The translations under genes and the position numbers were made by a program. Shown piece by piece: positions 6,313 to 26,462 of a stretch of 37,873 nt of DNA. Source of the stretch: a virus. The stretch is taken from positions 1-37,873 of IMG/VR virus record IMGVR_UViG_3300042368_001293. One strand, written 5' to 3'. The notes beneath the pieces were generated by a model that was not told where the DNA came from, did no database searches, and saw nothing but the letters and a program-made list of their open reading frames with translations. The first letter of the stretch is position 1. The number at the start of each line of letters is the position of its first letter.

Positions 6313-6990
6313 TCACATAGCGTAAAACCGACAAACGTCCTCGCGCAAGCGATTCACAATCGGCTTGGCCCCGGTGGCGCTCATCATCGACTCCAGCTCG
6401 CCCCCTCTCGCGTTGACCGTCACGAACATGGGCCTCATCGCCCTCCGGCGTTCTTCGATCACATGGAATAAATCGGCCTCAACCCGGTCGGTCAGCTTCA
6501 TCTTGTCGAGGTCGTCAAGGACCAGCACATCACACCGAATGCTCCGGTCGATCATCCGGCGGCGCTCCGAGCCCTCCGGTGATCCCGCGGCATAGGCAAA
6601 GCCCGTTCCGGTCAGGAGGCTCACCGTGCGCCCCTGTTCGTGCTGACGGCGGGCGAGTTCGTGAATGACGAACGTCTTACCGGCTCTGGACTCACCGATC
6701 AACCCGACACCCCGAGGTGACCATTGCCACTCCAGCACCGTTCTCGCGGCGGCCTTGGACGAATCCGGGAGTCGGTCGAACTCGAAGCCCTGGTAGGCGA
6801 GCGGACAAAAATCGGCCCAGAGCATGGCCGTGACCCGCTTCGGCTCGATGAGGGCCGCCTCCTTCACCGCCTGACACGCTTCGCAAAAATGCTCCGCGAC
6901 AGTGACGCTGCGACCAAGCAGCGTGAACGTGGCCGAGGCCGAGTCGAACAGGTCGCCGCACTGGCGACAGGATGCGGGGCGGGTGATCAT
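6313..6990 (-). CDS. DnaC-like helicase loader (AAA+ ATPase with zinc ribbon)
   Basis: A 225-residue protein. It probably brings the host replicative helicase to the phage origin opened by the initiator encoded just upstream. Residues 8-39 carry a CxxC...CxxC set (C8, C11, C36, C39) that should bind zinc. The AAA+ core shows Walker A GESRAGKT (99-106), Walker B VLVLDD (155-160), a sensor-1-like TVNA (191-194) and a late arginine (RLRED, about 214). DnaC/DnaI-type loaders have this arrangement. ATG at 6990 is preferred over longer starts: it has GGGAG about 9 nt upstream and lies 1 nt from the previous stop. The pair with the preceding gene mirrors lambda O/P or DnaT/DnaC. Confidence 0.88.
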   Translation of the reverse strand: MITRPASCRQCGDLFDSASATFTLLGRSVTVAEHFCEACQAVKEAALIEPKRVTAMLWADFCPLAYQGFEFDRLPDSSKAAARTVLEWQWSPRGVGLIGESRAGKTFVIHELARRQHEQGRTVSLLTGTGFAYAAGSPEGSERRRMIDRSIRCDVLVLDDLDKMKLTDRVEADLFHVIEERRRAMRPMFVTVNARGGELESMMSATGAKPIVNRLREDVCRFYAM

Positions 6991-6991
6991 G

Positions 6992-7723
6992 TCAAAACTC
7001 CCTCCCCCCCGCCGTGACCGCCCTCGCGTCCTCATCCTCCCAGCCCGCCCGGTCGATCCAGGTCGCCGGATGCGGGATGAACTGGCCGCCGTCCTTCAGC
7101 CACTCCCTCGAACGGACCTGCCAGGCTAACGTCGCCAGCACCCGGTCGATGGGCGGCCTCGCCCCGCACCAAGATTTGATCGCGTCGTTCTTCGCCACCT
7201 TCTTCGGGTAGGCTTCCCAGAATTCGACAAAGCCATGCATGGGAGACACCCCGTCACCCACGGGTGACGAAGAGACTTGTTCCCTTCCTTTCCCTTCCTT
7301 GTTCCCTTCCTTTCCCTTCCTTTCCGCTTTCCCGGCGTGGGGCACGCGTGGTTCACGCGTGGGGCACGCGTCAAGATCGTTGCACTGCAAGGGATCCGGC
7401 AGTTCAGACTCCCGCTCGCGGTTGTTGATGACCTGATGCGTCAAAAACGTCGGAATGACCCCAAAAACACCCGTGAGTGACGCGTATTTTTGAATGAATC
7501 CACGCGTGGTCAACGCGTCGAGCACGCGTGAAAAGTCGATTTCGTCGTATGGACAGATCTGGACTCCGAGCCGTCGAGGCTCCCACTTGAACCGACCCTC
7601 CCGGTCAGCGGCACACCACAAACCGACGAACGAAAGCCGGATCGGAAGCCCCGTTTCGCGCTCCAGATCGAAGAGTTCCTCATGCGTGAAAAACTCCGGT
7701 TTGATCGTACGAATTCTCATCAT
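6992..7723 (-). CDS. Phage replication initiator / replisome organiser (lambda O-like role)
   Basis: A 243-residue protein. The N-terminus (MMRIRTIKPEFFTHEELFDL..) is typical of phage replication proteins that bind the origin with a winged-helix domain (residues about 1-110: FSRVLDALTTRGFIQKY, VFGVIPTFLTHQ). A highly charged Gly/Lys/Glu linker follows (about 134-150), then a C-terminal domain of the primosome type (FVEFWEAYPKK.AKNDAIKSW......IPHPATWI, about 163-235), the usual helicase-loader contact. The gene contains iterons and a polypyrimidine tract, so it probably carries its own origin as lambda O does. An AGAGGAG sequence precedes the ATG. The start overlaps the previous stop as ATGA, and the helicase loader follows 1 nt after its stop. 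Confidence 0.85.
   Translation of the reverse strand: MMRIRTIKPEFFTHEELFDLERETGLPIRLSFVGLWCAADREGRFKWEPRRLGVQICPYDEIDFSRVLDALTTRGFIQKYASLTGVFGVIPTFLTHQVINNRERESELPDPLQCNDLDACPTREPRVPHAGKAERKGKEGNKEGKGREQVSSSPVGDGVSPMHGFVEFWEAYPKKVAKNDAIKSWCGARPPIDRVLATLAWQVRSREWLKDGGQFIPHPATWIDRAGWEDEDARAVTAGGREF
7276..7319. repeat. Tandem 22-bp polypyrimidine repeat inside the initiator gene
   Basis: Two perfect 22-bp copies (7276-7297, 7298-7319), almost pure pyrimidine on the + strand with a single G per copy. The pyrimidine run continues to about 7325. The tract encodes the Gly/Lys/Glu linker of the initiator. It lies next to the iterons and could serve as an easily opened or triplex-forming part of the origin, in the position of the AT-rich segment in lambda. 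Confidence 0.75.
7332..7375. repeat. Iteron cluster A (11-bp repeats) within the initiator gene
   Basis: Four head-to-tail 11-bp units starting at 7332, 7343, 7354 and 7365. The second and third read CACGCGTGG plus two bases; the first is degenerate (CCGGCGTGGGG) and the last keeps CACGCGT. An 11-bp period is one helical turn and not a multiple of three, so protein sequence does not explain it. Initiators of the lambda-O type bind such repeats. Confidence 0.65.
7468..7533. repeat. Iteron cluster B (11-bp register) within the initiator gene
   Basis: Six 11-bp slots starting at 7468, 7479, 7490, 7501, 7512 and 7523. Slots 7501 and 7523 hold CACGCGTG, 7512 holds AACGCGT, 7479 holds GACGCGT and 7468 holds CACCCGTG; slot 7490 has no match. 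The core is the same as in cluster A, about 100 bp away, with an AT-richer stretch between 7480 and 7500. Together the clusters look like an initiator-binding origin. Confidence 0.6.
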
Positions 7724-15733: not shown

Positions 15734-16159
15734 TTACGCTTCGAGAGCGTCGAGGCGGGCGTCGAGCACGACATCAGCGTCGAGGTAGTCCCTCTCGATT
15801 TCTTGAAGGATCAGCACGATTCGGTCGAGCCCGGACTCCAGCGCCTCGGCGGAGAGCCGCGAGCCCTGGACCAGGTTGACCGTCTGGGTGCGGGGAGTGA
15901 CCCGCTTGAACCTGATCTTGGAGCTTGTCGCCACGGCGGCGGCTGTCGTGGCCGATCCCCCGGTGATCCTGCCGTTGCCGTCCACCGTGGCAGTGAACGT
16001 GAACTGGTTGCTGTTGAGGGTCGTCGTCGCGCCCGCGTTGGTTGTGACGGTGACGACCAGGTGAGCTGCGTCGGCCAGAGGGAAGTTTGGGAGCTGGTAG
16101 GCGGTGACCGTCGAGTTGTTTCCGTCGAACGTAAGGGAGCTGGTGGTTTGGTTGATCAT
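15734..16159 (-). CDS. Free-standing T7 fibre (gp17) N-terminal-type anchor domain
   Basis: A 141-residue protein resembling the N-terminal virion-attachment domain of T7-type tail fibres. The beta-rich first part (LTFDGNNSTVTAYQLPNFPLADAAHLVVTV...) leads to IRFKRVTPRTQTVNLVQGSRLSAEALESGLDRIVLILQEIERD, which aligns by eye with the T7 gp17 segment ..LRRVTSTTDRLVDFTDGSILRAYDLN...HVAEEARD. In T7 this domain binds the tail adaptor/nozzle junction and continues into a shaft and receptor-binding tip. Here it ends after a short coiled-coil tail, so no fibre shaft is attached. It overlaps the giant internal protein as ATGA and precedes the holin, the same place as gene 17 in T7. Confidence 0.8.
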   Translation of the reverse strand: MINQTTSSLTFDGNNSTVTAYQLPNFPLADAAHLVVTVTTNAGATTTLNSNQFTFTATVDGNGRITGGSATTAAAVATSSKIRFKRVTPRTQTVNLVQGSRLSAEALESGLDRIVLILQEIERDYLDADVVLDARLDALEA

Positions 16160-19100
16160 GGGGTGTTGGGAATGAAGTTTCGGATGAGGGATTCCGCATC
16201 GCGGAGGACGTGAGAGAAGGAGGCGAGACCGGCGACGGTGTCGTTGAACAGTCCGCCCGCCATGAGCATGGTTTCGAGGTCGCGGAGCGGTTGCTCAAAG
16301 TCTCCCTCCAGCACCATGCCAAAGTTTTCCGGCGCTCTCACGATGGCTGCGGGAGCCTTGACGGGAGCGTCGAGGATGGAGCCGCTGGGTTTCCATTCCC
16401 CGGCGGCGGCGAAGATTGCGTCCTGCGCGATTTCCCCGAAGCCGGGGAACCCGTAGAGCGGTTCCGACGCCACGCTGAGAAGGATGCGGCGCATACCCCA
16501 CTCGTCCTCGCCCTCCTCGTCGTCGCGAAGATCGCGCCACGCCGTTCGGATCAGCGCCGAAAGGACGCCGTTGAAGACGATGACGTAGAGGAGCGCCCTG
16601 GCCAAGTCGCCGGAGGGCCGCTTGCCGCCCGTGTACGCGACGAGGGCCATGTTCTTCCGAGCCTCGGACGCGAACGCCCAGGCGACCCGGCCCAGTGGAT
16701 TGGTCGCGGTGGCCTCGAACAGGCTCCGCGTCCCCTGCCGCGTGGGCTGCGCGATTTCATCCACGATTCGCTCGGCCTCGTTGCGGGCGATCTCGGCGGC
16801 GGTCACGGGATCGACCCCGGCCTTGGTGGCCTTGGTCAACTGGTAGTCGAAGACCATGGCATAGGTTCCGGCGGTGAAGAGGGCGTCGGTCCCGGAAAGG
16901 AGTCGGCCCACGCGCTGCGCGGCGTGCTTGATCATGTTGGGCTTCCCGGCCCTGAGACCCTCCATCGCCACTTGCACCGAGGCTGGCATCTGGGCCAGAC
17001 GGCGTTGAATGTAGGGAGAGTTGAGAGCCTCGCCCCACCCGAGGTTCCCGGTGAGGAGCTTGGAGAGTCGGACGATGTAATCGCGGACAGGCATCTTGGC
17101 CGCCGCCGCCCCGAGCTGCGTCGTCTGAATTGCGAGCGTGCCGAGGCGACCGACAAGCTGTACCGCAGAGGCGCGACCCATGGCCGCTCCCAGCGCCTTC
17201 GTCAGGGCCAGGTGGGAGCCCGCATCGCGAACGCCACCCTGTGCAAACAAGTCGAGCCACGAACGCAACACCTTGGCCGCCTCCTGTCCGCTTGCCGCCT
17301 CGATGGCGTTGCCAACCTCCCGGTTGCCGAGGATCGCCTGCGCGTCACGGGAGAACACGGCGTAGGCTTTCCAATGGGCGAGCTGCTTCTTGTGGCCGAC
17401 AAAGACCTCGACGGCATTGCGGAAGTCCGGCTCGGCCACGACCTGCGCCCGCGTGCGGAGGCTGCCCGGCGTCATGCTTCCGTTGCTCATGGTCGAGCCG
17501 GTCACCGGGTCGGTCGTTTGCCCGCCGGGAGCCTGCTGCGGCTTGACGGTGAGCGGGGAGTATTTGTCGTTTCGCGGGAGATTGATCCCGTTGAGTTCGC
17601 GGAAGATGGGGTTGAGGGTCTCGTATTCCCCCGCGTATTGATCGGTGAGGTAGTCCATCACCGCCAGCGCCTCGGTCGAGAGGTTCTTTTCGATCTCAGC
17701 GATGAAGGTTTCGTCGTAGGACCAGGCCGAAACGATCTTCCCGTTTTCATCACGCTTGCCCCGCATGTGCCGCTTCCCGTCCTCCTGCCGCCACATCAGC
17801 AGGGCGGTGACGCCTTCAAGTTCGGACATCTTGCCGCCTGCCTTGGTCTCGAAGGAGGGCTGTGACAGCTTCCACTGGAGCTTCTCCCCGCCGAGACGGG
17901 AGCCCCCGAGTTCGCGGAACAGTTCGTCAAGCCCGTCGAGGACGGCCTGCACTTCGTCGAGCTTCTTGGCCTCGGCCTCGCGTTGTGCGTCGGAGAACCA
18001 AAGGGTCCACTTCGATTCGGCTCCCATGGCGAACCCGGCGACCTGCTCGAAGTTGAAGAGCGAGAGGAACCACTCCTTCCACTGGCCGGACAAACCGGCA
18101 TCCTGCTGGGCCTTCACGACCCGCTCGGGGCGGCTCCCGAGTTTTCCGGTCCCGGCGATGATTTCCGCACGGACCTCCGCCCGCCGTTCGCGCTCTTGGG
18201 CGATGCGCTCCTTCTCGGCCAGGTAGCCAACACGCCAGACTTCCTCCCCCGCATCGACTGCGGCGGTTCGCCGGGCTGCGTCCGCGTTCTTCCAATCCGA
18301 GAAGAGCCGGACTAGGTTGGCCTCGATCTTGGCGTGAGCCTCGGCCTCGGCGCTGAGTTCACCCTTCCCGATCCGGTCTTCGAGCATGGTTGCCCACGCC
18401 TCCGCCTGGTCGCCGTCCCACAGGAGCGCCTCCTTGAGCCGGTCGAAGAGGTCGTGGATGTCAGCGCCCGCCTTGCCTTTCGGTTTCTTCCCGGCGGCAT
18501 CTCGAACCGGCTCGGCTTGCTTGAAGAGTTTCTTCCGCCGGGTCTCCGCTTCCTTCCGGAGCCACTTCTCGACCTCGATGTCGATCTTTTTCACCCGCGC
18601 CTCGATCTCATCGAGCATGGCATCGGGATCGGTGAGCTTCGCGATGGCGACAAACCCGCCGATCTTCCCGCGAACCTCGGCAGGGAGCGCACGCAGGATC
18701 GCGTCGAGGGTCCGGAGGTGACCGATCATGACCTCCTTCGGTGCCTTCTTCTTCTCGCGCACCTTCTGCGCCTTCCACTTCTCAGCCAGGGACTGAGCCT
18801 CCGACCGTGCCGCCTGACGATCCACCGGAGGAAGTGCCTCCTGCTCCTCGGGTGAGTTCGCGTTGAATGTCTCGCGGAGGAGACGGTCATACTCGAATGC
18901 CTCGATGCTCCGCGCCTCACGGTCGATGCTCGCGATGCTCCGCTTCGACTGGAGGATGTAGGGAAGCACCTCGCGCAGCACCTTCGCTCCACGCTCGCGG
19001 GCCATTTCGCCAAGCTTCGGGCGCAGTTCCGGCGAGCGGACGAAGGGCGAGAACATGCTCGCGAACCGGGTGTCGATGTCCCCGGTGGTGCGGACTACGG

Positions 19101-22100
19101 AGAAACTCCCTCCTGCTCCACGATCTCCGCGCGACCCGTCTTGTCGAACTCCAGATCGAACACTTCCTGCGGCGTCAGTGCCTTGCCCAGAAGTGCCTCC
19201 CATGCCGCCTTCGAGTCGCGAATCACCGGAAGCCACTCTGGCCCATTCGGGGGGAGTGATTCCCAGTCCAATGATTTGAGATCTTGCAGAGTCAGCATCG
19301 CTTGCAGTTTGCCAGATTTTAGTGATTTGAGCAATGAAATTCTTGTCCCGCTTCCTGATGTCAGTGAAGAGACCTCTGATCGCTTCCCAGGTGATGGACT
19401 GCATCTGTCTGGGCATGACACCCCTCTCTGCTGCCGCTTCTCGGAGAGCTTCGTGGAAAAGCCAGTAGAGACCGGAATTCCCGCCACCGGCAACACCCGC
19501 CCCGCCGAAGTTCAACCCGACCAAGTAGCCCTTGTTCCCCATCGGATAAAGGACCGCAGCATTCACGGCATGGGTGTCCACCGTTGCGTCTCCGTAGGGG
19601 GATGTCGGCGAAACGATGTTGTTGTAGAAGTTGCGGATCTTGTGTTCCGTCCCAAGGACGCGGGAGATGTTTTCGAGGCTTCCGTCCTCGAAGATGGAGA
19701 TCGCTTTTTCGATGAACGCATACGACTGCCAGACGAGCGTCTTGTTGCTTCCGTCGAGGTTCTTCCTTGTCCCCATTGACTCTCCTTCCGGTGAAAGAAC
19801 ATCGTGATCGAGACCGTGAACGTGCGTTGACATCAGGCGAACTGCGACCGATGCAGTCTTCCTTCCTTCGGGCGATCTGTCCTCCAAGAGTTGAGTGATG
19901 GAATTTCCCTCGATTGCAGCAAACGCGACCCGGATCGCGTCTGGATTTTCCGCCGCGTTGAGCATGGTCTGCATGGCCCCACCCATCTCTGATTCCAGGA
20001 TCGTCGTGTTCCGGTGGTTTGCCATGACGTCGGCAAATCGTTGTCCCATTGCGACGTTCTGGAACCAGTCCTTCATCGGACTGAACACTGCGATGATGGA
20101 AGAGGCTTGCTCTACCGTGACGGAAAAATTGTCCCGGATCCCTTCGGCGAGCAATCGCGCCCCATCATACCAGTGGGTGGATCGGATGACGTAGTCCGCA
20201 GACAGGTCATTGAAGGCATCGTAAAGTGCGAGTAGGTTCTTCTTTTGAAAGTCGATGAACGCTCGCATCCGCTTTTCGGGATTGCGAAACTTCGTGATGA
20301 ACTTCGGGAGCGGCACCTCATCGACAAAATGAGTGACCATTGCCATCTGCTTCTCCAGTTCCTTCGGAGAAACCGTGGAAATACCGTCGTTCGTGTCCTG
20401 AGTGGTCGGCTTTACTTTTCCCTGCCACGCAGTGCCGACCCTGCTTCCGTCGTTTTTGGGATCCTCCTTTGCGATCTCATCGAATCGAAGAGTGGAAAAC
20501 GTGATCTCATCCCTCGTCTGGTCGAACCGTTGCGATAGCGGGATGACGTTGCCGGATTCGTCGTAGGTTACGGGATCGGCGGATTGATGCCACTTTGCAT
20601 ACGCCACAACTCCTCTACGCATTTCCCGTGAGCTTTCGTTGTCTGGGTATCCCGGCGGAATAGAAACGTCATCCAATGTATTGATTTCGGCGAGTATTCC
20701 ATTGGTGTCCCACAACCAGTCGGCAAGCTCTTTTCTCTGAAAATCACTAAGATCTGCGGGCATCCACGGATGCGCTCCGCCGAACCGATTTTGGTAGTCC
20801 CAGATATCACCTCCGTTTTCGATAACTTTTTGGACAGACCTCCCATTTAAAAAATCATCTGGGTCTACGATCTCATTATTGCCCCACATCAAAGTAGAGA
20901 AAACTTCTCTCGCCAGACCGCTAGACGGTTTAGCCGCCTCATCCACCATCCGCTGCAACTCCTCGCGGTTCGCCTCGGGGTCTTTCGCGAGTTCCAGGTA
21001 TCTCCGGTCCTGCTCGCTCAGGCGCATGGTCGAGAACGTGACGTTTTCAACGCGACTCCGCAGCATCGCAGTGCGCCGACGTTCGTAAATCTCTGCCGCC
21101 TCTTTTGCGGCATCCTCGATCTGCTCGTCGGTGATCCCTTCTTGAATCGCCCAGCTCCCGTATTCGCCGCCGGTGTGATTTTTCGCGTAAGCACCGAACG
21201 TCCCATACGTCTCTCGAAGTTCGTCAACCATGCCTCTGCTCGACCGAATCTTCCCGGTCCACTCATACCATAGGGTGACAAGTTCGGATTCCGGGAACGT
21301 GGGATCCTCCTCCTCATCGCGAGAAATCACGGGTGCCCCTTTGTAGGGCAGGAACGTCTGTTCTGAATCATCACCCTCGTCCATTCCGTCGAGGTCGGAT
21401 TCCGCCCGCTCCAAAAGGATTTCAAGCTCGGCCTCCAGGTCGGCGACACCTTCGGTTTGCCCCGCCTCATACATGCTGTCGATGCGTTGCATGAGTGCCT
21501 GGATCCGCTCCACAGGAACCGGAGACATGGTCGAGAACGTCTGCTCATCCAGAAACTCAACGCCCATGTCCTTGGCGATACCTTCGCCCTCCTTGATTAC
21601 AGTGCGCTCGAACTGCCCTTGCTCGGTCACGCCGATGGACTTCGCGAGGAACGTCTCCAGATCCCCGTCGAACGTCTTGTCCCGGCGGGCCTTCTCGATC
21701 ATGGCGGCGCGGCGATAGACGGCCTCGAAGAGGCTGGCATACCCGGTCAGCACCGCCCCGAAGTCGCCCCGGAGGGCGTCGGCAATGCTTTTTCGGAACC
21801 GGCTGGAGAACACCCTGCCCTGATCGCCAGACTTCGACCGGCCCGCCAGGTAGCCCTGCACCATCTTGCTATAGGCTTCGACGATGTCCTGGTCCTTGAT
21901 CTGCGATTCTTCCTTGATGCTGGCGCGGAACAGGGTGTCCCCGCTCGTCGCCTCCCATTGCCGGAGCGCCCCGATCATCCACCGCCGGAGGCCCAGCTCG
22001 CGGATCATGAACTTCGCGTCTCCCTCGGCGGTTTCCTCAAAGAGGGTGAAGGGTGTCGCGCCTTGGTAGAGCCGCACCGTGTTGCGAACGACCCGGTCCC

Positions 22101-24540
22101 CGAAGGAATCCGGCGCGGCCTCAGAGGTAGTGGCGGATCCGAGAATGTAGTTGACCGCCGTCCTCGCCTCCGGCGAATTGGCGACCATGCCCGCCATGGC
22201 CTTGGCCTTTCGCTCCTCGGTCTTGGGCGTGAGCGCCTTGTCGGCCTCGGAGATCTCCATGCGCTGGGCCATGTCCTCGCCGGTCGCCACCCCTTGCGCC
22301 TCCATGTCCTCGGTCGTTGGACGCAGGGGAGAAACGATGAACTTCACCTCCCGGCCCCGCTCGATCTGCGAGGTGGTCATGCGGGCGGCGGTGATCATGT
22401 CCTCATGGAGGGCGGCGACCGCACTGGAGGCCACCGCCTCGAAGCGTGCGAACGCCTCCGCGTGGGAATCGTATTGGACCGCCTCCCCGCCGGAGTAGCG
22501 GAGCGTGTATTTCTCGCCCTCGCGAAGGATGGCCGGGAGGATGTCCAGCTCCCCGGCCTCGTTCAGCGCCTGCTGCATGGCCTCGCGCTCCGCGATCATT
22601 CTGGGGATCGCCTCGGCCCGCGCCTCCTGCACCGACTTCTGGTCCTGGCCGAGGGTCTTGAACTCCTGCCGCAGGAGAGTCTGCGCCCCCTCGACGTTGC
22701 CCTGGCTTGCCAGCGCCCGCACCTCGGAAGCCGCCGCCTCGGACAGGCCGGTGGCTCGGAGGAGGTCGTAGGAGGTGAGAAGTTCCGCCCCGCCCTTGAA
22801 ATCCGAATACGTCCCGGCCCCGCCGCCGATCACCGCCAGTGGCAGCACCGCGAAGAACAGTTCGGGCTGTTGCTTGAGCAGGTCGCCATAGACCGGCCCC
22901 CAGGGAACTTCCGGCATATCCTCGTCGAGGGCCGAAAGGAGCCCTTGCAGCACGAAGGGCGTCAAATCCTGCACGTTCTCTTGAACCATTTCCAGACCGG
23001 CTGTGGCGGCGGTGCGGGTGAGGAATCGCGAGGCGACCGCGCCCTTGGTCCGGGTGATCTGGTTGAAGAAGCGGTTGACGGCCTTGAACTGGCCCAGTGC
23101 CAGTGTGGTCTGGCCCTTCTCGATGAATGCCTGGAAGGGACCGGAAAGCATGGAGAGCGTCTGCGCCTGCTCTGCGGTCATGGTCGGATTCGCCGCCCGA
23201 AGGGACCGGTAGGAATCCCCGGCCAAGGCCATGGCGTTGATCGCCCATCCGCCGCGAGCCATGGAGGTCATCATGTAGGGGACGGACTCGGCGGCGGCGT
23301 AAAGCCCGCGCACGGGAAGGAACTCCGAAGTCACCGGATCAATGTCGTTTTCTGCCGCGAGCCGAAGCTCGTCCCGAAGGTCGATGGCGTCCTTGTTTTC
23401 TCGGATCATGGCCAAAGCCTGGTCCTTGACCTCGTCCGAGGGCTTGTCGAAATCCGCCCCGGCCACCGCCTTCATGACTCCAGCCCGGACCTCATAAGCG
23501 TCACCACCGGCTACGCGCTGAAGCACGGCTTCCATGTATTCCTCCGGCGTTCCGGCCTTTTCGGCGGGAACCTCGACACCCTCGGCAATGGCCCGCTCAA
23601 CGGCGATGGCCTGACTGCGCTCACCGATGGAGACGACAGAATCCATTCCGCCGCGCAGCCCCCGGTCGAACTTCTCGACCAGCCCCTCCATGACGCTCTT
23701 CCTCCCGGCCTCGTCGTTGGCGCTGGCCGCCACCGCCGCAGCGATGACGAGCTTGCGGTCTTCGGCGGGGACCATCATCACCATCTCGGCCAGCTCCCGA
23801 TAGCTCGCAGCATTGTCGATCTCGCGCCGCTGGGCCAGGGCTTCGTCCATCGTCGTGGGATCTTCCACATCGACGCCCTCCTTGGTCATCAGGGCCGCCG
23901 ACAGCAGCTTGACCGTCGAGCGATGCGGAGCCAGCTTTTGGTCGAACCGGTCCTTGAGGGATTGGAACTCCTTGTCCCACTTCTGCTCCCGCCCCACATA
24001 GGAGGAGTTCTCGCGGAACCGCTCCTTGAAGGCCAGCTCGGAGCGGAGGACGCCCAGGTTCTGGAGCGAGGTTTCCTTGGCGGCGTTGGCGACCTCCTCG
24101 CGGGTTTGGTAATCCCTCGCGATGCGGTCGAAGAAATGCTTGTGGGTCGTGGAGGGAGTTCCCCACTCCCTTTCCGAGTAGATCTTCATCAGCTCATCGG
24201 CCTCGCGCTCGACGCGCTCCCTGGGGACTCCGGCAGCCTCAAACCACTTCCGGTTGAAGAGCTTGAACTTCTCGTCCGGGGACTCGCGGAAGTTTTCATT
24301 GAGGGAAACAAGCGTGTCCTCATCAAGGCCGTGATTGGGCTCGGTGAAGAACGACCGGAGGGTCGATGCCTGCTCGTCTCGGCGGCGCTCCTGCTCGGGG
24401 AACATGGAGAGACCGGCGGCCTCCTGCTGGGCCTGATAGGCACGGGTGAGCGCCTGCGCCTTGGCGATGACGGCAGGGTCGTTCGGGTTGGCCTTTGCGA
24501 CGGCAATGGCACGAAGGGCGTCTTGTTCTGGGATGGGCAT
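16156..24540 (-). CDS. Giant internal virion / polyvalent protein (T7 gp16 position), about 2,794 residues
   Basis: This protein occupies the place of T7 gp16, an internal core protein ejected into the host, but is about twice as long. Residues about 1-1000 are helical. Residues about 1165-1347 hold an ART-PolyVal-type shell, from RRYLELAKD...MVDEAAK (about 1176) to SADPVTYDESGNVIPLSQRF (about 1320-1340). Residues about 1380-1800 resemble a phage domain with IIAVFSPMKDW..N, KIRNFYNNI and ATVDTHAVNA motifs (DUF7178-like from memory). A charged coiled-coil region follows. The C-terminal 700 residues resemble other large polyvalent proteins, with a hydrophobic helix near 2650. Another lies near 565. 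FS motifs (TFSTM, TFSTM, TFSTL, SFSVV) near 1000, 1167, 1347 and 1812 mark junctions. No lysozyme-like domain was recognised. ATG at 24540 forms TGATG with the previous stop. Confidence 0.82.
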   Translation of the reverse strand: MPIPEQDALRAIAVAKANPNDPAVIAKAQALTRAYQAQQEAAGLSMFPEQERRRDEQASTLRSFFTEPNHGLDEDTLVSLNENFRESPDEKFKLFNRKWFEAAGVPRERVEREADELMKIYSEREWGTPSTTHKHFFDRIARDYQTREEVANAAKETSLQNLGVLRSELAFKERFRENSSYVGREQKWDKEFQSLKDRFDQKLAPHRSTVKLLSAALMTKEGVDVEDPTTMDEALAQRREIDNAASYRELAEMVMMVPAEDRKLVIAAAVAASANDEAGRKSVMEGLVEKFDRGLRGGMDSVVSIGERSQAIAVERAIAEGVEVPAEKAGTPEEYMEAVLQRVAGGDAYEVRAGVMKAVAGADFDKPSDEVKDQALAMIRENKDAIDLRDELRLAAENDIDPVTSEFLPVRGLYAAAESVPYMMTSMARGGWAINAMALAGDSYRSLRAANPTMTAEQAQTLSMLSGPFQAFIEKGQTTLALGQFKAVNRFFNQITRTKGAVASRFLTRTAATAGLEMVQENVQDLTPFVLQGLLSALDEDMPEVPWGPVYGDLLKQQPELFFAVLPLAVIGGGAGTYSDFKGGAELLTSYDLLRATGLSEAAASEVRALASQGNVEGAQTLLRQEFKTLGQDQKSVQEARAEAIPRMIAEREAMQQALNEAGELDILPAILREGEKYTLRYSGGEAVQYDSHAEAFARFEAVASSAVAALHEDMITAARMTTSQIERGREVKFIVSPLRPTTEDMEAQGVATGEDMAQRMEISEADKALTPKTEERKAKAMAGMVANSPEARTAVNYILGSATTSEAAPDSFGDRVVRNTVRLYQGATPFTLFEETAEGDAKFMIRELGLRRWMIGALRQWEATSGDTLFRASIKEESQIKDQDIVEAYSKMVQGYLAGRSKSGDQGRVFSSRFRKSIADALRGDFGAVLTGYASLFEAVYRRAAMIEKARRDKTFDGDLETFLAKSIGVTEQGQFERTVIKEGEGIAKDMGVEFLDEQTFSTMSPVPVERIQALMQRIDSMYEAGQTEGVADLEAELEILLERAESDLDGMDEGDDSEQTFLPYKGAPVISRDEEEDPTFPESELVTLWYEWTGKIRSSRGMVDELRETYGTFGAYAKNHTGGEYGSWAIQEGITDEQIEDAAKEAAEIYERRRTAMLRSRVENVTFSTMRLSEQDRRYLELAKDPEANREELQRMVDEAAKPSSGLAREVFSTLMWGNNEIVDPDDFLNGRSVQKVIENGGDIWDYQNRFGGAHPWMPADLSDFQRKELADWLWDTNGILAEINTLDDVSIPPGYPDNESSREMRRGVVAYAKWHQSADPVTYDESGNVIPLSQRFDQTRDEITFSTLRFDEIAKEDPKNDGSRVGTAWQGKVKPTTQDTNDGISTVSPKELEKQMAMVTHFVDEVPLPKFITKFRNPEKRMRAFIDFQKKNLLALYDAFNDLSADYVIRSTHWYDGARLLAEGIRDNFSVTVEQASSIIAVFSPMKDWFQNVAMGQRFADVMANHRNTTILESEMGGAMQTMLNAAENPDAIRVAFAAIEGNSITQLLEDRSPEGRKTASVAVRLMSTHVHGLDHDVLSPEGESMGTRKNLDGSNKTLVWQSYAFIEKAISIFEDGSLENISRVLGTEHKIRNFYNNIVSPTSPYGDATVDTHAVNAAVLYPMGNKGYLVGLNFGGAGVAGGGNSGLYWLFHEALREAAAERGVMPRQMQSITWEAIRGLFTDIRKRDKNFIAQITKIWQTASDADSARSQIIGLGITPPEWARVASGDSRLEGGMGGTSGQGTDAAGSVRSGVRQDGSRGDRGAGGSFSVVRTTGDIDTRFASMFSPFVRSPELRPKLGEMARERGAKVLREVLPYILQSKRSIASIDREARSIEAFEYDRLLRETFNANSPEEQEALPPVDRQAARSEAQSLAEKWKAQKVREKKKAPKEVMIGHLRTLDAILRALPAEVRGKIGGFVAIAKLTDPDAMLDEIEARVKKIDIEVEKWLRKEAETRRKKLFKQAEPVRDAAGKKPKGKAGADIHDLFDRLKEALLWDGDQAEAWATMLEDRIGKGELSAEAEAHAKIEANLVRLFSDWKNADAARRTAAVDAGEEVWRVGYLAEKERIAQERERRAEVRAEIIAGTGKLGSRPERVVKAQQDAGLSGQWKEWFLSLFNFEQVAGFAMGAESKWTLWFSDAQREAEAKKLDEVQAVLDGLDELFRELGGSRLGGEKLQWKLSQPSFETKAGGKMSELEGVTALLMWRQEDGKRHMRGKRDENGKIVSAWSYDETFIAEIEKNLSTEALAVMDYLTDQYAGEYETLNPIFRELNGINLPRNDKYSPLTVKPQQAPGGQTTDPVTGSTMSNGSMTPGSLRTRAQVVAEPDFRNAVEVFVGHKKQLAHWKAYAVFSRDAQAILGNREVGNAIEAASGQEAAKVLRSWLDLFAQGGVRDAGSHLALTKALGAAMGRASAVQLVGRLGTLAIQTTQLGAAAAKMPVRDYIVRLSKLLTGNLGWGEALNSPYIQRRLAQMPASVQVAMEGLRAGKPNMIKHAAQRVGRLLSGTDALFTAGTYAMVFDYQLTKATKAGVDPVTAAEIARNEAERIVDEIAQPTRQGTRSLFEATATNPLGRVAWAFASEARKNMALVAYTGGKRPSGDLARALLYVIVFNGVLSALIRTAWRDLRDDEEGEDEWGMRRILLSVASEPLYGFPGFGEIAQDAIFAAAGEWKPSGSILDAPVKAPAAIVRAPENFGMVLEGDFEQPLRDLETMLMAGGLFNDTVAGLASFSHVLRDAESLIRNFIPNTP

Positions 24541-26462
24541 CACATGGTGGCTTGCGCCGGGATGGTGTAGCTGTTGAGCCACTCGAGGTCTTTTTCTGGA
24601 AACAGGGCAGGGTCAATTTGGCCGCTCTCCCCTGCGGGTGACATTCCGAGAGGGTCGTCGCCGCTGAGTTTCTCATCGACCATCTTTTCGGCGGCCTTCG
24701 CTCGGGCGGGCTCGGTGATCTTGCGCTCGACCTCCGGCGCGTTCTCCCGCGTCATCTCGCCGGTGTCGGCCTGGCGCTGCATTTCAAGGAGAGTCTTCGC
24801 CACATCCTCATCGACGGCCCGCTTCTTCCGTTGGTCGGTGACAAACTTGGCCTTGCCTTCAAGCAGATCTTCGCGATCCGCCTGGCTGACCTCGACGATG
24901 CGACCGACTTTCTGCCTCGGCCCCCGCCACCAAGGATCGACCGTTTCCTCGTATCGCGCCGCGTCACCCTCGTCGGGCTGCTGACTGAAGTCGATGAAGA
25001 GCGTCTTTCCCGAAACCTCTCGCTGTTCCAGCTTCCCGGCCTCGACGCGATAATCAGCCCCGGCGTGGGCCATTTCCTCCATGGCCTTCTTCCTCGTCGC
25101 AAGGATGTCCTCCCCAAACGTCAGCGGCTCCCCGTTCTTGCGCTTTTCGAGGATGGTTCGAGCGCCCTCCGCCCTCGGGTCGTCGCCCATGGTCTGACCG
25201 ATAGCCAACTCCAGAACCCCGGCGGCAACTCCTCCGACATCCTTGGCCGGGTCGTAGGCAGCGGCCTTGGCCATGAGGTCAACGATGCCGGCCTCGGTCT
25301 TGACGAATTCCTCCTTGAGCTTGGCCGTCAGGATCGACCGGTTGAGCGGGTCGATGGGCTTGCCGTCGAAGAACGCGTCGAGATCCCCCTCGGTCTTGAT
25401 GTCACCGTTGCCAATGTAGATCTCGGCGGCCTCGACCTGGGACGCGTATTCGTCGTTCTTGGCCTTGTATAGCGGCTCCAAAGTCTCGGCCCGCATCATG
25501 GGTGAAAGTTCCGGGTGGTTGACGTAGTTGCCCTCGGCGTCCTTGGCGGTCAGCTCCGCGATAAGGTCGTCCGGGTCCGCGCCGTCACGCGCACGCTCGA
25601 TGACCTCGAACTGAATCTGCCGGGACACGACCTTGCTGTCGAAGTTGGCGACAGCATTCTGGCGGTCGTCCTCGGTTTCCCACGGCGCGTTGGCGATCTC
25701 GTCCCGCCCCTCCTGCCACAGCCCGCGAAGGGCGAAGGTCTCGCTCCTGAGCTTGGCCCCGTTGAGAGCATCCTCGCGGATCTTCTCGCTCGCCTCCCAC
25801 CGTGTCCGCTCCGCCCAATCCGCCCCCTGCCACCCTTGATCGACGGCATACTGGGTGAGGTTCTCAACCGTCGCCAGGTCTCCGGCCCGCATCGCCCGCA
25901 TGATCTCCGCGTTGTTCGATTCGTTCGCCAAGCCGATGACCCGCTTCGCCGCGTCGAGGCCCACCCGGAGGCCGTGCCGGTTGCCAAAGCTGATGACCCG
26001 AGCGGAGATTTGGTCCTTCGCCGCCGGGGAAAGATCCTCGCCGGAAAGCAGGTCGTTCTGGATGCGCTCCATGCGGCCGTTCCACTCCGGCTCCCACCGG
26101 TTCGGGTTGGGCTCGGTCAGCTTCCAAGCCTCAAAGTCAGCCACCTCCCGGTCCATCGCCTCCCCGGCCTCGGAAACCTTGCGGAAGTTCCACGCCTCCG
26201 CGATTCGCTGGCGCACGTCGAACATGGCCTCCCCGAGGTTGCCGACGCCCTGCCCCAGGTTCTGGAGCCCTCGGGCGCTTGCCTGACCCAGTTCTGGCGA
26301 GACGTTGGCGACGGGCTGATTGATTTCGCCCAGCGCATCCGCCAAGGACGCGATACCGCGCAGGGCGGTGGACGCATCGACCCGCAGACCCTGCTGGGAC
26401 TCCATAGCCGGAGCCACCGGCTGGGCCGGTCCCTCTGCTCGATATTGTGGAATGATGGGCAT
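24540..26462 (-). CDS. Internal virion protein (T7 gp15-like position)
   Basis: A 640-residue soluble, highly helical, charged protein (start MPIIPQYRAEGPAQPVAPAM) lying between a gp14-like and a gp16-like protein, the order of T7 genes 14-15-16. In T7 gp15 is part of the internal core and forms a tube across the cell envelope during DNA ejection. Sequence identity to T7 gp15 is not evident; the Pro/Ala-rich start followed by long helices with LADALGEINQPVANVSPELG and QNLGQGVGNLGEAMFD is common among gp15-like proteins of other podoviruses. ATG at 26462 is 1 nt after the previous stop; an Arg/Ser-rich upstream extension is a shadow. Confidence 0.7.
   Translation of the reverse strand: MPIIPQYRAEGPAQPVAPAMESQQGLRVDASTALRGIASLADALGEINQPVANVSPELGQASARGLQNLGQGVGNLGEAMFDVRQRIAEAWNFRKVSEAGEAMDREVADFEAWKLTEPNPNRWEPEWNGRMERIQNDLLSGEDLSPAAKDQISARVISFGNRHGLRVGLDAAKRVIGLANESNNAEIMRAMRAGDLATVENLTQYAVDQGWQGADWAERTRWEASEKIREDALNGAKLRSETFALRGLWQEGRDEIANAPWETEDDRQNAVANFDSKVVSRQIQFEVIERARDGADPDDLIAELTAKDAEGNYVNHPELSPMMRAETLEPLYKAKNDEYASQVEAAEIYIGNGDIKTEGDLDAFFDGKPIDPLNRSILTAKLKEEFVKTEAGIVDLMAKAAAYDPAKDVGGVAAGVLELAIGQTMGDDPRAEGARTILEKRKNGEPLTFGEDILATRKKAMEEMAHAGADYRVEAGKLEQREVSGKTLFIDFSQQPDEGDAARYEETVDPWWRGPRQKVGRIVEVSQADREDLLEGKAKFVTDQRKKRAVDEDVAKTLLEMQRQADTGEMTRENAPEVERKITEPARAKAAEKMVDEKLSGDDPLGMSPAGESGQIDPALFPEKDLEWLNSYTIPAQATM

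Follow-up and report, generated by a model that had tools for sequence, protein, structure and literature searches.

Phased ACGCGT Iterons inside a Phage Initiator Gene as a Probable Self-Embedded Replication Origin

Replication origins that lie inside the gene of their own initiator are already known from lambda and the Stx phages, from phage L, from RepA_N plasmids, and from repABC plasmids. In lambda and the Stx phages, the origin is located within the initiator gene (PMC5043065, PMC7466680), and nearly all purines of the lambda unwinding element are found in one strand (PMC5043065). In gene 18 of Salmonella phage L, 11-bp iterons within the initiator gene, followed by a candidate unwinding element, have been predicted, and its authors draw the inference that initiators related only distantly recognize different iterons, each in its own coding region (PMC8022706). 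Among the RepA_N initiators, of which pSK41 Rep is an example, the N-terminal domain binds Rep boxes situated centrally in its own gene, and the origin encodes the linker (PMC5703833), and in the repABC plasmid p42d, silent mutations of an AT-rich region showed that oriV lies inside repC (PMC3155836).

The locus considered here belongs to a temperate phage, and the window (the whole stretch of DNA analyzed, 37,873 nt) is the entire virus record; its minus strand also contains, at 16156-24582, a single open reading frame of 2808 aa, a remarkable size in a phage genome of only 38 kb. The initial annotation had proposed a lambda-type origin inside the initiator gene. Our main reading, to which we assign a probability of roughly 0.86, is that this gene carries the theta-replication origin of the phage, in the form of a lambda-like, self-embedded iteron origin that is not a lambda O homologue. 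The features on which this reading draws, in window coordinates, are as follows:

6992..7723, minus strand: initiator gene (243 aa), with a predicted N-terminal winged helix-turn-helix (wHTH), a linker and a C-terminal domain
6313..7035, minus strand: gene for a DnaC-like helicase loader, next in the operon after the initiator (Pfam IstB_IS21, 5.2e-7; PHROG 50 "DnaC-like helicase loader", 7.1e-13)
7505..7534, minus strand: predicted third (recognition) helix, codons 64-73 (AlphaFold2 model residues 63-72), overlapping cluster 1 (codons 65-74)
7502..7529, minus strand: iteron cluster 1, ACGCGT at 7502, 7513 and 7524 (gene positions 217, 206 and 195), codons 65-74 reading S-RV-L-DA-L-T-TR
7480..7485, minus strand: a further, fourth site of cluster 1, set apart by two steps of the register (gene position 239), codons 80-82; several relatives have a copy at the same position
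7344..7371, minus strand: iteron cluster 2, ACGCGT at 7344, 7355 and 7366 (gene positions 375, 364 and 353), linker codons 118-127 (DAC-P-TR-EP-RV)
7280..7325, minus strand: polypurine tract of GGGAA/GGAAG units, 18 bp past the last iteron (gene positions 399-444), a candidate unwinding element; it overlaps the perfect tandem pair of 22-bp units at 7276-7319

In gene-strand order, cluster 1 with its extra copy is followed by cluster 2 and then by the purine tract. In a PHROG profile search, the initiator protein matches PHROG 16167 ("replication initiation protein") at 5e-42 over residues 1-113, which correspond to the N-terminal domain, as well as PHROG 12556, PHROG 1408 and others; a Pfam search assigned it to no family, the RepA_N domain included. 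At 133 related loci with 1.5 kb of room downstream, our own profiles identified a DnaB-like gene in 46, a DnaC/IstB-like loader in 22, and neither in 65.

Exact copies of ACGCGT occur seven times in the initiator gene (7344, 7355 and 7366; 7480, 7502, 7513 and 7524), with all spacings within either group being 11 or 22 bp, and the gene holds 7 of the 13 copies in the window, a total that is itself ordinary (shuffle mean 10.7). The initial annotation had described two groups of 11-bp repeats, at 7332-7375 and 7468-7533; the register is real, but the outer units at 7332 (CCGGCGTGGGG) and 7468 (CACCCGT) are degenerate, and the second group comprises four good copies and one weak copy, the unit at 7490 being a blank rather than an iteron. 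Its argument that protein repeats cannot cause the pattern, 11 not being a multiple of 3, is correct, as successive units of the array fall into each of the three reading frames in turn (S-RV / DA / TR), and the tandem 22-bp polypyrimidine repeat it had reported is a perfect pair on the plus strand (7276-7297 and 7298-7319). The GC-skew check it had suggested gave no turning point at 7.3 kb in the window, and GC skew is uninformative as an origin marker here.

A protein search of viral contigs returned 47 relatives of the initiator, 37 of which have arrays that include pairs spaced by exactly 11 bp and that lie at matching gene positions (about 192/203/214 and 350-400). Three further relatives (L039, L040 and L041) have looser copies only, and seven of the 47 protein-selected relatives (L042-L048) have no ACGCGT array. 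The question of whether the repeats persist where the protein does is thus answered in favor of conservation by these relatives, and likewise by a DNA-only scan and by the codon tests discussed below. In this blind scan of viral and genome contigs for ACGCGTN5ACGCGTN5ACGCGT, the array was located inside an open reading frame matching an N-terminal wHTH profile, built from 20 relatives that are mostly array carriers themselves, in 102 of the 118 viral loci among the matches listed. The corresponding figure for the genome contigs was 37 of 117 listed loci, the other 80 being off-profile.

Seven of the 16 off-profile viral loci (among the matches listed) were scanned against PHROGs and Pfam: three (L052, L073 and L101) match PHROG 9474, two (L085 and L132) match DUF1376, and L080 and L090 gave no PHROG match, with two weak Pfam helix-turn-helix matches below the cutoff in L090. 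The protein of L146 is identical to that of L073, and in L135 the array overlaps the edge of a profile-matching open reading frame. At least 5 of these 16 loci among the matches listed therefore fall into other replication-gene families, and, judging from these matches, the ACGCGT iteron is also used in PHROG 9474 initiators and in DUF1376 primosomal proteins; in wider sets, the DUF1376-type relatives L312 and L315 keep the array, and the PHROG 9474 relatives L398 and L399 are without it. We note that L080, L090 and L124 each have three ACGCGT copies at 11 bp in a phage gene that no family clearly matches, that L090 and L124 share the peptide DACATRVRRV, and that these genes are not initiators by the libraries (PHROG/Pfam scan of L080 and L090).

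Two layouts account for most of a partly DNA-selected set of 112 non-redundant genes, with 77 showing both clusters, 26 only the linker cluster, and 9 falling into neither class. In a separate protein-selected set of linker-only relatives (80 of 120 kept, 62 non-redundant), 51 of the 62 genes have a pair at 10-12 bp, and the 226 sites found compare with 41.8 expected; the helix-3 residues of these relatives differ from those of the bipartite type. The spacings between clusters in the 77 bipartite genes clump near multiples of 11-11.5, but we do not read this as helical phasing between clusters, as an 11-bp array that loses copies at its ends would show identical clumping. The same bipartite array (195, 206, 217, 355, 366 and 377) is present in a circular Bradyrhizobium record of 46.6 kb, a phage-plasmid that has genes for portal, capsid and integrase, and no other replication initiator is annotated for it in the PLSDB gene table, which is incomplete; this array fits autonomous replication, and the record could be an excised phage. 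In VvAW1, the sites are at 206, 421 and 432, which is not a run of three.

A number of further loci are recorded here for their linkers or repeats. Judged by eye, the initiator linkers of the viral contigs L336 and L394 contain an HNH-like endonuclease insert, with the ACGCGT array of L336 displaced beyond the insert to 620, 630 and 651, and that of phage Mx8 p19 contains a GIY-YIG/T5orf172-like stretch; these inserts are possibly homing endonucleases inside origins. Distant initiators of phages F10, Louie, Fyn8, LESphi2 and MD-2021a have GATTC-based linker repeats at 7 and 14-15 bp, several of which read as DSLNLIPDSLNLIPD, with strong synonymous-shuffle support for F10 and LESphi2 only, and these are perhaps another origin type. 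Finally, the Isosphaera sp. PR.3.33 metagenome-assembled genome contains many dispersed copies of a long REP-like palindrome, GGTTAGCGACGCGTCG...CGACGCGTCGCTAACC, which was seen in L188, L190, L193, L196, L205, L210, L225, L232, L238, L239 and L244.

Among the relatives without ACGCGT, L042 and L044 have runs of TCCAAG/CTTGGA instead. Across 13 loci with this sister-clade N-terminal domain (three of them contigs identical to L042-L044), TCCAAG is above expectation in 12, and it occurs on an 11-bp register at the same two places as the ACGCGT clusters; L309 and L310, for example, have it at 332, 343, 354, 365 and 376, and again in the wHTH codons. L042 and L044 share 46-47% identity with the window protein in the C-terminal domain and 36% in the N-terminal domain. 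In a domain-by-domain comparison of 16 relatives, 11 (L010, L011, L012, L013, L017, L018, L026, L037, L038, L039 and L040) have 63-76% N-terminal identity and no C-terminal match; ACGCGT arrays keeping the 11-bp register are present in 9 of these, and looser copies only in L039 and L040. With TCCAAG accompanying a window-like C-terminus and ACGCGT a window-like N-terminus, the iteron type thus tracks the N-terminal and not the C-terminal domain. Evidence to the contrary comes from ACGCGT being common to divergent wHTH families (linker-only, PHROG 9474 and DUF1376), which a pure coevolution model does not predict; the site is thus not strictly tied to the wHTH sequence.

An AlphaFold2 model of residues 2-131 of the window initiator, based on 59 sequences, has a winged helix-turn-helix fold (mean pLDDT 88.5), with helices at 27-37, 48-55 and 63-72 and a wing, where model residue n is protein residue n+1. 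The third of these helices would, from its place in the model, be the one that reads DNA. In the model of the sister-clade protein L310 (pLDDT 85.6), the third helix spans 60-70, and TCCAAG is found from gene positions 172, 183 and 194, corresponding to codons 58-67. A sequence search of solved structures gave nothing beyond two d chains of ATP synthase (E 0.007), which we take as chance, and a Foldseek search with the N-terminal model gave nothing below E 0.001. VIA-align returned many tied wHTH chains at Z of about 6-7, plasmid initiator structures included, none of which reaches Z 8; 4pt7, 5kbj and 4pql, at Z 5.9-6.5, are tied with unrelated wHTH proteins. We take 4pt7 and 5kbj ("Structure of Rep-DNA complex") to be RepA_N initiators.

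The conserved neighbor of the iterons is a tract of GGGAA pentamers, a candidate unwinding element, and not an AT-rich segment. At 20-60 bp past the last cluster 2 iteron, the 77 bipartite genes have a purine fraction of 0.84-0.86 and an AT fraction of only 0.44-0.50, and in the family profile the stability minimum of the tract is equaled at -100 and -60. The motif GGAAGGGA is present in 20/21, 58/62 and 12/13 genes of the protein-selected, linker-only and sister-clade sets, respectively, compared with 6.1, 14.2 and 3.7 in synonymous shuffles; GGAA spacings peak at 5, 10, 15 and 20, and the sister clade, with its TCCAAG iteron, carries the same purine tract. The initial annotation had offered either AT-rich 7480-7500 or the purine/pyrimidine tract as the melted segment. 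The former does not stand out in the family, and for a triplex formed by the latter there is no specific evidence, as perfect purine mirrors of ≥15 bases are absent from the window; purine mirrors are found in 53/62 linker-only relatives compared with 1.6 expected, as a pentamer repeat would give. Canonical G-quadruplex motifs are present in 8/21 genes (3.2 expected) and 22/62 (11.5 expected), and the G-run spacing in the window, by inspection, misses the canonical loop length.

To separate DNA from peptide, the protein was held fixed and the initiator gene recoded synonymously, 20,000 times each with codons drawn at window frequencies, with codons drawn uniformly, and with the codons of the gene itself shuffled. 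The recodings reached at most 4, 4 and 6 ACGCGT sites and 2, 2 and 3 11-bp pairs, respectively, compared with the 7 and 4 observed, such that 0/20,000 reproduce the array under each null; the gene-codon shuffles average 1.8 sites. In the protein-selected non-redundant set (21 genes at <85% DNA identity, window included, 500 synonymous shuffles each), there are 94 ACGCGT sites compared with 14.3 expected and 49 exact 11-bp pairs compared with 0.41, and site number beats all 500 shuffles in 14 of the 21 genes. Across 14 gap-free aligned protein-selected genes, the mean modal-codon fraction is 0.965 for the 8 iteron codons of cluster 1 and 0.563 for 36 other conserved codons, none of which (0/36) reaches 0.99. 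In the protein-selected non-redundant genes, arginine is CGC at one place and CGT at the other, serine is TCA, alanine GCG and threonine ACG, each in 13/13. As the iteron codons are near-invariant while equally conserved neighbors vary, selection is therefore on DNA and not on the peptide alone, and the phased repeats in the initiator coding sequence are under DNA-level selection. Both clusters do encode recurring RV, DA and TR dipeptides, and a common peptide raises the chance of ACGCGT, such that the repeats could be viewed as a by-product of conserved peptides (SRVLDALTTRG, DAxxTRxxRV) in GC-rich codons. This we consider extremely improbable: other conserved residues are spread over several codons each, while the iteron codons are fixed, and the recoding nulls, the 21-gene shuffles and the modal-codon comparison together rule out the peptide as a sufficient cause.

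DNA-level selection could also act on an operator, with the initiator or a phage repressor regulating its own operon through the ACGCGT arrays and replication starting elsewhere. The arrays do lie within a gene for replication, and autoregulation by a wHTH protein is conceivable; however, they lie 195-380 bp into the coding sequence and not at the promoter, the neighboring strand-asymmetric tract is conserved along with them, and both location and layout match the lambda and phage L origins. We therefore regard a purely regulatory role as unlikely, while noting that operator and origin functions are not mutually exclusive. Similarly, a common host factor, rather than the initiator, might read ACGCGT and recruit the initiator, as the same 11-bp array accompanies divergent wHTH types (linker-only, PHROG 9474 and DUF1376) at loci from several bacterial phyla. 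Against this stands the sister clade, which swaps the entire iteron to TCCAAG with the layout kept, the iteron type following the N-terminal domain; moreover, we know of no bacterial factor that reads phased ACGCGT, and we consider such a factor very unlikely.

Judged from these comparisons, arrays and tract are held by DNA-level selection across many initiators with unrelated C-terminal domains, and we infer initiator binding, melting and initiation at this site. In an origin of this kind, initiator molecules would bind the ACGCGT sites through the wHTH domain on one face of the DNA, the 11-bp register being about one helical turn, and the two clusters would load a nucleoprotein complex, the strain of which would open the adjacent purine tract, with one strand of its pentamers held single-stranded. 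Helicase loading would then fall to the C-terminal domain together with the DnaC-like loader, whose place a phage DnaB often takes in relatives. Since the gene of the reader itself contains the site, wHTH domain and iterons would travel as one cassette, the far edge of which would be the purine tract, where C-terminal domains exchange. We offer a further extension tentatively, as possible but doubtful: that the origin is bipartite, with half of it written in the recognition-helix codons of its reader, such that helix and recognized DNA can change only together and clades escape by wholesale iteron change (ACGCGT to TCCAAG) or by loss of the helix cluster (linker-only), and that initiator or loader reads the GGGAA pentamers as a single-strand code, much as with DnaA-trios.

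The analysis turns a loose lambda analogy into a testable origin family in phages and prophages across many groups of bacteria, and the simple signature of this family, three ACGCGT at 11 bp, can direct attention to origins in phage genomes that lack annotation. It also provides a natural case in which the same codons serve a folded DNA-binding helix and the putative target of that helix, which is useful for studying the evolution of initiator specificity, as well as a compact replicon for use where vectors for a bacterium are scarce. The GGGAA tract raises the question of how opening proceeds at an origin that has no AT-rich element.

Compared with the described systems, the lambda-type reading holds for the architecture, namely an N-terminal DNA-binding domain, iterons in the linker, a strand-asymmetric tract just 3' and a helicase-loader gene next, and fails for sequence relation to lambda O and for the iterons, which are 11-bp and not 18-bp units. 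As in the lambda origin in gene O (O/P/DnaB, with its Stx-phage versions), central initiator codons hold iterons (codons 117-145 in lambda; codons 118-127, cluster 2, in the window), a purine-asymmetric tract, here a candidate unwinding element, lies directly 3' in the gene sense, and the helicase-loader gene is next; in our lambda control, the purine maximum of gene O falls directly after iteron 4. As comparison of lambda O with the window initiator gave no sequence relation (BLASTP E 0.92; hhalign probability 0.2), we do not file the protein as an O homologue, and the C-terminal parts of some relatives match PHROG 345 ("O-like"). Lambda differs in having 18-bp iterons with internal dyads 20-24 bp apart, in contrast to 6-bp palindromes every 11 bp, in having no cluster annotated in DNA-binding-domain codons, and in having an AT-rich element where the GGGAA tract is about 50% GC.

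Phage L gene 18 has TCCAACG at 399, 410, 421, 465 and 476 on one register, and its initiator does not match the window-family wHTH profile; it differs in being linker-only, with a different iteron, an 85% AT element and not a purine tract, and a DnaB-type helicase next. In RepA_N plasmids, by the account cited above, the origin codes for a dispensable linker, whereas in the window one half of the array forms codons of the predicted recognition helix, and the fold match to 4pt7 and 5kbj (Z about 6) is not distinctive. In p42d, the initiator is a different one, and the available sections of PMC3155836 report no iterons in the repC origin. Our searches of open-access literature gave no paper on ACGCGT iterons in phage initiators or on iterons in recognition-helix codons. 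As far as these searches go, the family with ACGCGT iterons and its wide occurrence, the location of one cluster in recognition-helix codons, and the GGGAA tract appear to be new.
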